A stretch of DNA of 64,000 nucleotides from Buchnera aphidicola (Nipponaphis monzeni). Its GTDB lineage: Bacteria > Pseudomonadota > Gammaproteobacteria > Enterobacterales > Enterobacteriaceae. The stretch is taken from assembly GCF_006741185.1 (NCBI RefSeq), contig NZ_AP019379.1, positions 310,001 through 374,000 on the forward strand, in the 5' to 3' direction. A model generated the notes under the pieces. That model did not search any database. It was not told the DNA's origin and was given only the letters and a program-made list of their open reading frames with translations. Shown one piece after another: positions 43,258-50,539 of the stretch (within the stretch, counting starts at the first letter, position 1; every line of letters begins with the position of its first letter). A program made the translations under genes and the position numbers.

Positions 43258-43916
43258 TTATTTTACGTTAATTATCACTTTTCCATCGACATCAGATTCG
43301 CCTATCAATATTTTGTTATATATTAAAATACGTACTTTTTGGCCACTTTGAGCATTATTTAGAGCTTTTCCTGTTGATTCAATTTGGAAACCTTCTCCAT
43401 TAATTATTATAGGCACTATTGTATTATAATTAATTAACCATACAGATTTAATTAAATTAAATGTTATAGGTTCGTTTGGCTTAATTTCTTTTAAAGTGAC
43501 CTTGTTTAAAATATCTGACATTTTGACGCAAGTGTTTTTAGGTAAAAGATCTAAACGTCCCATTTTAAATCTTAAATGATTAATTGATAAAAGAGTATTT
43601 TTAGGTATTGTTTTAGTAACTGTAATATATTTTCCTATTAATTGTAATTCTACTTTTAAATATCGATGTAATACATGACAATCTATTAACAATTCCATCA
43701 AACCCCAATTTTTGTTGCTATTATTTAATATTAAGATTTTAGGTTTTTCACATAGATTCCATTTTTTTGCTTGGGTGTATACAATTAAATGCATATTGTG
43801 AGAATAGTTAATATTTCTTTCTTTTAAATATTGAAATATGTTATCAAACAAACTTGTTGCATTTACTTGTAACATAATAAACGTAATCAATAATACAATT
43901 TTTTTTTAATAAACAT
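43258..43916 (-). CDS. flgA: Flagellar P-ring assembly chaperone FlgA, with signal peptide joined through a poly(A) run
   Basis: Periplasmic chaperone that helps FlgI form the P ring. The mature part is intact from TTG 43890 to the stop (SAF-type C-terminal domain: IPKNTLLSINHLRF, KPNEPITFNLI, SGQKVRILIYNKILIGESDVDGKVIINV). That frame alone starts with a stub too short for export. Upstream, AAGG eight bases before an ATG at 43916 begins M-F-I-K-K-K and then hits a stop because of a run of nine A (43899-43907). With ten A the two parts fuse into 219 residues, exactly the E. coli length, with an ideal signal peptide (basic start, hydrophobic core, cleavage after VNA). I therefore place the start at 43916 and propose slippage. 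Confidence 0.85.
43899..43907 (-). other. A9 homopolymer at the flgA frame break
   Basis: Nine T on the plus strand, nine A in flgA, just after codons M-F-I. One added A turns K-K-K-L-Y-Y-stop into K-K-K-I-V-L-L-I-T-F, the signal-peptide core in frame with the mature protein. Confidence 0.85.
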
Positions 43917-44363
43917 ATTAAAAACCTTAATAGTTCTAATTATTATTATATTTAGATTTATTATACCAGTTATTGTTGATTATACATCATTATAAAATAT
44001 TTTTTTAAATTTAAATGTTATTTAATTTAAGCATTTATTTGAAATGTTATAATCATTATTAAAAAATTATTTAATTACAATTGTTTGCAAATGTTTAAAA
44101 ATAATGAAATATTTAAATTTTAATAAAAAAACATTTTTTTATAAAAAAATTTAATAATGTTGTATGATATGCAATATATTATATACTAATTCCTTTTTAA
44201 GTTTTATTTTTTATGTAAATTATATTTTTCATTAATAATGATTATTTAAAAAATAAATTACTATAAAATAGTATATTTATTATTAAACAATAGATAAATA
44301 CTAAATATTAAATGATGTTATATAAAATGTAATTAATTGATTAATATTATAGAGTAAAATATT
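43917..44363. other. Divergent flgA/flgB spacer
   Basis: About 450 bases with no gene; the place for the divergent flagellar promoters. In E. coli these respond to FlhDC, whose boxes I cannot recognise here. The AAGG for flgA is at about 43925-43928. Confidence 0.5.
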
Positions 44364-45866: not shown

Positions 45867-46943
45867 ATAAAAAATAATATTAAATATTATTTAATTTATA
45901 ATAAACATAATAACAATAGTCATATTAAAGTTATTTTTGTGTATAATGATATGATATATAATTTTATTAATTTATATATCAAAAATATGAATTAAAAACA
46001 TTAATAATTGACGTTATTAATTTTTAATTAAATTATTTAATGATAATTCCAATATTTGATAAAAATACTTAATTTGTGTATTAATAGTTTCAATTATATT
46101 TGTAAAAATTTCAATAAATATGTATTTTTAGTATTTTCATAATATATAAACATAATAGAAAGTTTATTCTAAACGTATTATTTTAAAATAAATAAATGGT
46201 AATTATGTTTTTTTAATAGATAATTATCTATATGAATAAAAAATTAATAAAATTAAGTAATGACTAATACAAATCTTTATGTTTATGAAATAAAATAAAA
46301 AAATGGTTTTTTATTAAAAAACATTAAGTAACTTTTAAAAAAAAATTTTATAAAATAGTACTTTTAACAAAAAACATAATTTTATAACTATGTATTAAAT
46401 GTTGTACAATATATTTACATATGTTAATAACTTTATAAAAAATTAAATTTTATTTTTTTAAAGATAGCAATTAGTATGAATTAATACTAATTGCTAAAAA
46501 CATTTTATTTTTTTTAAATTTAATTATTGAAATAAATTAAGTTATACTGTGTATTAATATTATAAATATATAAAATACATGTTTATTAAATATAATATTT
46601 AAAATAATTATTTTTAATATATTCAATAAGTAGTATAAATTATTTTATTACTAATATGTCATAAAAAATAATTATTTTAAAAAATAAAAATATTAAATTA
46701 TAAACTAGTAAAGTATTAAAAAAATTAACTTTTGATAAAAAAATAAATTGCATATGTAAAAAATGATAAATACATTAAATAATTAGATTAAGAAATAGAA
46801 AAAAATGATTATTTTAATATTTTGTAATAAATACGTTTAATTAAATAACATAAGATGTGCGAAAATGCATAAACAATTTTTTTATTATATATAAATTTAT
46901 TTTTAAACAAAAAAATATAATAATTAATCTTAATAAAAAAAAA
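45867..46943. other. 1.08-kb gap where flgE (hook protein) normally lies
   Basis: In E. coli the order is flgD-flgE-flgF; here the space between flgD and flgF is filled with A+T sequence that encodes nothing like FlgE (about 400 residues, 1.2 kb). The size suits a dead gene in late decay. The codons in frame upstream of the flgF start (46857-46943) are also noise. A 13-bp hairpin at 46465-46496 is the only ordered element. Confidence 0.75.
46465..46496. terminator. 13-bp hairpin in the flgE gap
   Basis: TAGCAATTAGTAT (46465-46477) and ATACTAATTGCTA (46484-46496) pair perfectly around GAATTA. T-rich tracts lie on both outer sides (TTTTTTT before, TTTTATTTTTTTT after), so it could terminate in either direction or protect an mRNA end, splitting flgBCD from flgFGHIJ. 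Confidence 0.55.
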
Positions 46944-48480: not shown

Positions 48481-48569
48481 TATATTTTTATTTGTAATTA
48501 ATATGTCTGTTTTAATTAACACATTTTTATTAAATATAATATTTTACACTAAAATAAAAAAACTTTTAT

Positions 48570-49453: not shown

Positions 49454-50539
49454 ATGTTTAAATCATTGTTATATACATTAATATTATTATTCATAGGAGT
49501 TAATTCATTAACTTTTGCAAGTAAAATTAAAGATTTAACAAATATTGAAGGTGTACGTGATAATCAACTTATAGGTTATGGTTTAGTAGTTGGTTTAAAT
49601 GGTACAGGAGATCGTGTTAGTCAAGTTCCTTTTACAATACAAACGTTGAACAATATGTTATCGCAATTAGGAATAAAAATTCCAATCATAAACAATAATT
49701 CTCAATTAAAAAATATAGCATCAGTAATTGTAACAGCAAAATTACCTCCTTTTGGACTACAAGGAGAAAAAATAAATGTAATTGTTTCATCTATAGGTAA
49801 TTCTAGTAGTTTAGAAGGAGGCGTTTTACTAATGACTCCCTTAAAAGGGATAGATAATCAAATTTATGCAATAGCCCAAGGGAAAATATTGATTCAAGAA
49901 AATTATTCTTATTCAGAAAAAGATACGATATCTTTCAACAAAAAAAAATTTAATTCTGGTAAAATAATTGATGGAGGTATCATAGAGAGGGAACTAAAAA
50001 ATAATTTTAATAATAATAATATTATTAAATTACAATTATATAAAGATAATTTTACTTTAGCAAAACAAATTAGCGATAATATTAACTATCGTTACAATAA
50101 TATCGCAACTGCAATTAATGCTAAAAGTATAGTAATAGATATTAAATCTTTTAAAAATGTCGAAAAAATTAATATTATTTCCAATATTCAGAATATAGAT
50201 ATTCCAAGTTCTCAATCAAAATCTAAAATAATTATTAATTCTAAAATGGGTGCAGTAGTAATAAGTAAATCAATTAAGCTAAATCCATGTTCTATTACCT
50301 ATAAAAATTTTACCATATTTGTAGATAAATTTAAAAAATATTCTTATCAATCAACTAATTTTAATAGAACTTTAAATAAAAAACATGTAAGTAAAATAAA
50401 TACTAATGCTACACTGTCTAACATAATACATACTTTAAATTTATTTGGTATTAAACCACATGAACTAATATCAATTTTAGAAACAATGAAATTAGCTAAT
50501 TGTTTATCTACTAAAATAGAGACATTTCATGAAAACTAA
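49454..50539 (+). CDS. flgI: Flagellar P-ring protein FlgI
   Basis: Periplasmic ring subunit seated in the peptidoglycan layer, assembled with FlgA. 361 residues (E. coli 365). Signal peptide of about 22 residues ending TFA; IEGVRDNQLIGYGLVVGLNGTGDR is the diagnostic N-terminal block, NVIVSSIGNSSSLEGGVLLMTPLKGID the next. No clear Shine-Dalgarno. The last codons overlap flgJ by 11 bases, so the two are translationally coupled. Confidence 0.96.
   Translation: MFKSLLYTLILLFIGVNSLTFASKIKDLTNIEGVRDNQLIGYGLVVGLNGTGDRVSQVPFTIQTLNNMLSQLGIKIPIINNNSQLKNIASVIVTAKLPPFGLQGEKINVIVSSIGNSSSLEGGVLLMTPLKGIDNQIYAIAQGKILIQENYSYSEKDTISFNKKKFNSGKIIDGGIIERELKNNFNNNNIIKLQLYKDNFTLAKQISDNINYRYNNIATAINAKSIVIDIKSFKNVEKINIISNIQNIDIPSSQSKSKIIINSKMGAVVISKSIKLNPCSITYKNFTIFVDKFKKYSYQSTNFNRTLNKKHVSKINTNATLSNIIHTLNLFGIKPHELISILETMKLANCLSTKIETFHEN

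Follow-up and report, generated by a model that had tools for sequence, protein, structure and literature searches.

A probable young homopolymer frameshift divides the signal peptide of flgA in the Buchnera of Nipponaphis monzeni

In Buchnera aphidicola of the gall aphid Nipponaphis monzeni, the gene for the flagellar P-ring chaperone FlgA is divided at a run of nine A's, with the first codons of its signal peptide in one reading frame and the rest of the gene in the next. The gene lies on the minus strand of a 64,000-nucleotide stretch (the window), which sits in the chromosome AP019379.1 of 587,781 bases; the whole genome consists of three contigs and 599,733 bases. On balance, flgA is probably an eroding gene that acquired a homopolymer frameshift not long ago and that now leaks instead of being silent. 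Replication slippage, as it occurs in Buchnera genomes generally, would have dropped one A from the run in a flagellar gene that may no longer be strictly needed in this aphid lineage. Most transcripts would then encode a nine-residue peptide alone, and a minority may gain one A by a backward slip of RNA polymerase and give FlgA with its signal peptide; alternatively, the ribosome could slip by −1 on A_AAA_AAA, with the same product. The features at the start of the gene are as follows.

43925..43928, minus strand: Shine-Dalgarno-like AAGG, 8 bases 5′ of the ATG (read directly; compare 32 of the 34 intact flgA genes described below)
43887..43916, minus strand: upstream frame from ATG to TGA, MFIKKKLYY, holding the n-region of the signal peptide (sequence and translation)
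43899..43907, minus strand: nine-A run at which the frames part, with A_AAA_AAA in phase with the ATG frame (sequence)
43888..43890, minus strand: TTG, the first listed downstream start, which forms TTGA together with the stop; translation might reinitiate here (sequence)
43258..43890, minus strand: downstream flgA frame of 210 codons, which takes in the last part of the hydrophobic core, then QVNA and the complete mature part of FlgA (open reading frame, profiles, alignment, PDB 3tee)

On the minus strand, AAGG (43928-43925) is followed after an 8-base gap by ATG (43916-43914), TTT ATT, the nine A's (43907-43899) and TTG TAT TAT TGA. A preliminary description of this DNA had placed AAGG, eight bases and an ATG at 43916, just as they are read here, and had recognized the short frame, but it ended that frame directly after MFIKKK; the frame runs for nine codons, MFIKKKLYY, to the TGA at 43889-43887. 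The downstream frame opens past a TAA that overlaps the A-run, reads KKIVLLITFIMLQVNATSLF... and extends to 43258, and all 210 codons from its first listed start, the TTG at 43890, are open. The offset between the two frames corresponds to a deficit of one A or an excess of two, most simply to one missing A. No second lesion was seen, leaving a single one-base offset in an A/T run of an otherwise open gene, the pattern of a homopolymeric frameshift. The earlier total of 219 residues for both frames fused is arithmetically correct, and 219 residues is also the length of Escherichia coli FlgA.

The 210-residue product was identified as FlgA by TIGR03170 (4.4e-22, 78.5 bits against a cut-off of 54.65), by the Pfam family ChapFlgA (9e-17, 61.7 bits against a cut-off of 23.8) and by PDB 3tee, an FlgA structure that we take to be the Salmonella protein (1.6e-27). 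The C-terminal FlgA domain thus scores above its curated cut-offs, and the two cysteines conserved in all 14 Buchnera rows of the alignment fall on cysteines of 3tee. By eye and by hydropathy, however, no single frame of this gene holds both a signal peptide and the domain. In the main Buchnera genus (g97), all 36 genomes have an FlgA match, and 34 of them carry the ATG, the hydrophobic core, an ending of the KVNA or INA type and the FlgA domain in one frame, indicating that the split signal peptide at this locus is more than chance. The intact g97 proteins are 216-236 residues long, and AGG or GGA stands at a similar spacing before the ATG in 32 of the 34 intact genes. The earlier claim of a split signal peptide, and its location, therefore hold, with the n-region in the ATG frame and the core and QVNA in the next.

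Leaders were scored for 32 of the 36 g97 genes, the remainder being two broken genes and two intact ones missed by the Shine-Dalgarno rule. Lys or Arg was present in the first eight residues in 31 of the 32, and peak hydropathy was at least 2.6 in every one. The product that would start at the TTG in the window lacks both Lys and Arg in this stretch, and its hydropathy peaks at 1.8. As the preliminary description had held, the gene as split has thus lost its customary export signal, and a protein without the fused start is unlikely to be exported. This bears on a route by which translation would end at the TGA behind MFIKKKLYY and restart at the TTG that overlaps it, making a 210-residue FlgA. 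The geometry suits it, as TTG (43890-43888) overlaps TGA (43889-43887) and lies in the FlgA frame, but the product would begin (M/L)ITFIMLQVNA, a leader that makes export unlikely, and we consider reinitiation very improbable. The preliminary description had considered neither reinitiation at this TTG nor −1 ribosomal frameshifting at A_AAA_AAA.

Constraint on FlgA was gauged by a rate ratio: protein distances between the window and nine of the 36 g97 genomes were averaged, and the result was divided by the mean among those nine. The ratio for FlgA was 1.72, alongside 1.71 for FlgB, 1.74 for FlgC, 1.80 for FlgF, 1.91 for FlgG, 1.54 for FlgH, 1.95 for FlgI and 1.64 for FlgJ. This ordinary value means that the break is recent or that the gene still works. 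FlgD, at 2.49, was the fastest of the nine Flg proteins, and its gene adjoins the former place of flgE; it is unusually fast, as if next to be lost. A g97 FlgE query of this genome found no homologue except flgG. Two features near flgA belong to this picture.

49454..50539, plus strand: flgI, the P-ring protein and client of FlgA, an intact frame of 361 residues (open reading frame, FlgI match)
45867..46856, no strand: spacer of about 1 kb between flgD and flgF, the place of flgE in g97 relatives (flgG is the only place matched by the g97 FlgE query)

A FastTree tree of FlgC, FlgF, FlgG, FlgH and FlgI from 15 genomes joined the window to genus g76 with a support of 0.986. The five g76 genomes were matched to the Buchnera of Ceratoglyphina, Chaitoregma, Astegopteryx, Ceratovacuna and Pseudoregma. 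Host taxonomy (NCBI) agrees with the grouping, with N. monzeni in the tribe Nipponaphidini and Ceratoglyphina bambusae in the tribe Cerataphidini, both of the family Hormaphididae. In this sister genus, no FlgA profile match was found in any of the five genomes, nor did the profile match anything when their flg region was searched in all six frames, yet all five have an open flgI frame and retain flgB, flgC, flgF, flgG, flgH and flgI. The gene for the P-ring protein is thus kept there with no chaperone gene detected beside it. The same five Cerataphidini Buchnera gave no FlgD match, and FlgE queries matched them only about the flgG place.

Beyond the sister genus, 29 genomes of at most about 700 kb outside g97 and g1, the genus of the window, had an FlgI match in a search of 392 family genomes, and 19 of these 29, among them the five of g76, had no FlgA profile match; some of the 29 are perhaps not Buchnera (g125 may not be). 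Past work describes loss of flgA in the Buchnera of Baizongia and Cinara cedri (PMC1899503), and N. monzeni Buchnera is placed among the large genomes with enlarged non-coding regions, reaching 24.7% (PMC11193766). The preliminary description had offered two options for flgA, rescue at the transcript level or a very recent break. These were the right two, and the comparative evidence favors a recent break in an eroding gene, because all five g76 genomes lack an FlgA match yet have flgI, and flgE is already gone here.

Broken copies of flgA were also found elsewhere. Among 46 near-full-length FlgA genes in small genomes (36 from g97, nine from other genomes and that of the window), three are broken, each at an A-run and all with the same offset. 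The Brachycaudus cardui Buchnera, to which genome G424 was matched, reads ATG TTA TTA AAA AAA TAA, and its leader core continues in the next frame; its break is a seven-A run just after the start codon, at a place equivalent to the run in the window. At the corresponding place, its nearest relative (G434) and a further genome (G437) have eight A's, and in both the frame is open. The divergence between G424 and G434 (nonsynonymous, dN, 0.12; synonymous, dS, 0.38) mixes time before and after the break and was not used. In the third genome, G096, ten A's stand just after the leader and the two halves lie in frames offset as in the window. Both of these copies show a single A-run offset, and no further lesion was seen. 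The nine near-full-length genes from other small genomes are all open; an additional match in G302 was short and weak (3.6e-10) and falls outside this set.

Several observations weigh against a young break in a decaying gene. An FlgA match is present in all 36 g97 genomes, and the broken copies in two of them showed no other lesion, which looks like tolerance rather than decay. The 210 open codons and near-normal constraint of FlgA in the window are also what is expected of a rescued gene. The branches of g76 and G210 are long, and the sister grouping, good but not final, could be aided by long-branch attraction. Finally, genus g1 is represented here by one genome, leaving no second genome with which to date the break. 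Given that the N. monzeni and B. cardui Buchnera carry the offset at the same place after the start codon, with that of G096 further in, A-run frameshifts at the start of flgA might recur and be tolerated through slippage that gives a low, steady supply of exported FlgA. The signal peptide would then act as a switch, slipped molecules giving an exported chaperone and unslipped ones nothing; we regard this proposal as improbable.

Further genes in this genome are divided in the same manner. The window and positions 1-200000 of contig C1, 264 kb in all, were surveyed for long frames parting at A/T runs. The survey needs at least 45 open codons on each side and misses cases at the start of a gene such as flgA, making the four cases now known in 264 kb a lower bound. 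Three genes were each found split at ten A's with the same offset as flgA.

960-969 of the window, minus strand: mfd (transcription-repair coupling factor) split at ten A (Mfd profile positions 457-587 and 616-1145; structure matches)
C1:46176-46185, minus strand: murB split at ten A (MurB profile positions 4-223 and 221-340)
C1:115729-115738, plus strand: priA, divided at a run of ten A (PriA profile positions 3-115 and 114-729)

Both pieces of each gene match consecutive parts of their own family profile. For mfd, these are a 178-codon piece with the RID domain (1446-910) and a helicase piece, open for about 565 codons, that runs from 967 past the start of the window. In Table 1 of Degnan et al. 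(2011; PMC3164680), the number of homopolymeric frameshifts in a Buchnera genome ranges from 1 to 18, and four cases in 264 kb agree with this.

The six confirmed A-run breaks (flgA in three genomes, and mfd, murB and priA) all share one direction of offset, which replication slippage, undercalling of bases or survival through polymerase slippage would each give. Since this is the offset expected of homopolymer undercalling, and single-base indel polymorphisms have been described within Buchnera samples (PMC3164680), the count of nine A's might be wrong through faulty sequencing or assembly, or might be a single variant of a run whose length differs within the population, in a gene that is intact. 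Against this, the 264 kb hold 99 runs of at least nine A within open frames 150 or more codons long (by position, two of them inside the broken mfd and murB pieces), arguing that there is no gross undercalling, and the same pattern occurs in two other genomes. We therefore consider an error or a variant allele rather improbable.

Other places picked up by the survey did not hold split genes. C1:4883 and 4895 mark atpH and atpA, as we take these genes to be; C1:165405 marks two neighboring genes, judged from their peptides and presumably nuoK and nuoL; and 48556-48562 of the window is the start of flgH. Four rows with short frames were set aside, of which C1:184026 (A8) and C1:154472 (T7) have the opposite offset and C1:121340 (T8) and C1:174747 (T7) that of flgA. 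A Pfam scan of six of the eight pieces gave no match; a real split gene among these rows would alter the count of six out of six. A promoter scan found sites no commoner than in shuffled sequence (14 against 16.3), and comparison with a plasmid collection (18 records, every one below 60% identity) was of no use.

All six breaks would be undone by one extra A, as expected if flgA were a working gene upheld by RNA polymerase slippage, with extra-A transcripts supplying exported FlgA and selection keeping both frames. Single-base insertions in Buchnera transcripts are reported to increase exponentially with run length (PMC5574713), nine A's are described as enough for strong slippage in Thermus dnaX (PMC1088944), and corrected transcripts are given as 12-50% at other endosymbiont genes (PMC5009743). 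Within the window, flgI is intact, and flgA has neither an extra lesion nor an accelerated rate. The preliminary description had called slippage in Buchnera established, which holds insofar as it is reported for a gene other than flgA (PMC3164680; review PMC5009743), but a transcriptome-wide survey reports that no frame-restoring event was detected (PMC5574713). Runs of at least nine A are, moreover, not avoided in coding sequence here, the 99 observed comparing with 100.0 expected (standard deviation 4.9; 200 synonymous shuffles of 160 frames). Baranov et al. treat such non-avoidance as a sign that nine A's may slip little (PMC1088944), though weak selection would give the same result. The sister genus has no FlgA match, and the run in G424 is of seven A's only. 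That flgA is a working gene maintained by polymerase slippage is unlikely.

Rescue, if there is any, might instead lie with the ribosome, as a −1 frameshift on A_AAA_AAA would yield this fused protein from an unchanged mRNA. Each of the three broken flgA genes has the heptamer in phase, in the window within ATT AAA AAA AAA TTG and in G424 exactly so, with its seven A's followed by TAA. Any run of at least nine A holds an in-phase heptamer, however, as the length alone implies, so the observation is informative for G424 only. Downstream of the run in the window, no unusual structure was found (56 of 200 shuffles fold as well or better, z −0.58; pseudoknots lie outside the test), and AAGG ends 17 bases before the run, beyond the usual spacing of a stimulator for such sites. 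Frameshifting by the ribosome is therefore quite improbable as the means of rescue.

With flgA, one more gene joins those that a poly(A) run leaves neither clearly alive nor clearly dead in Buchnera, a state seen at flgA in three lineages. If rescue is real, P-ring assembly in these symbionts would depend on errors of the polymerase or the ribosome; if there is none, flgA has been caught at the first step of its loss, beside a sister genus already without an FlgA match. The case also counsels caution in annotation, as a start called at the TTG conceals the split signal peptide. In library searches on Buchnera flgA, flagellar gene loss, slippage or frameshifting, and N. monzeni, no flgA frameshift appeared in the titles or abstract openings listed.

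Compared with known systems, the break is a further case of a known Buchnera lesion and mostly ordinary. Like the homopolymeric frameshifts described by Degnan et al. (2011; PMC3164680), it is a single run indel in a gene otherwise kept, a type of lesion that is often independent in separate lineages, as in murF; unlike that set, flgA is unnamed in the main text of that paper, and the lesion falls in the signal-peptide codons and leaves the mature domain untouched. Window flgA has the full mature domain of the FlgA represented by 3tee and TIGR03170, and differs in having its signal peptide split over two frames. Thermus thermophilus dnaX likewise has nine sense-strand A's at its frame change (PMC1088944), but there two products come from a working gene, and the nine-A break in N. 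monzeni flgA is not common to any relative examined. The endosymbiont genes rescued by slippage (Tamas et al. 2008; Wernegreen et al. 2010; as cited in PMC3017870, PMC3164680 and PMC5009743) share with flgA a poly(A) run, a one-base offset and an otherwise intact gene; for them, corrected transcripts are described or the frameshift is common to populations or species, whereas flgA is known here from its genome sequence.
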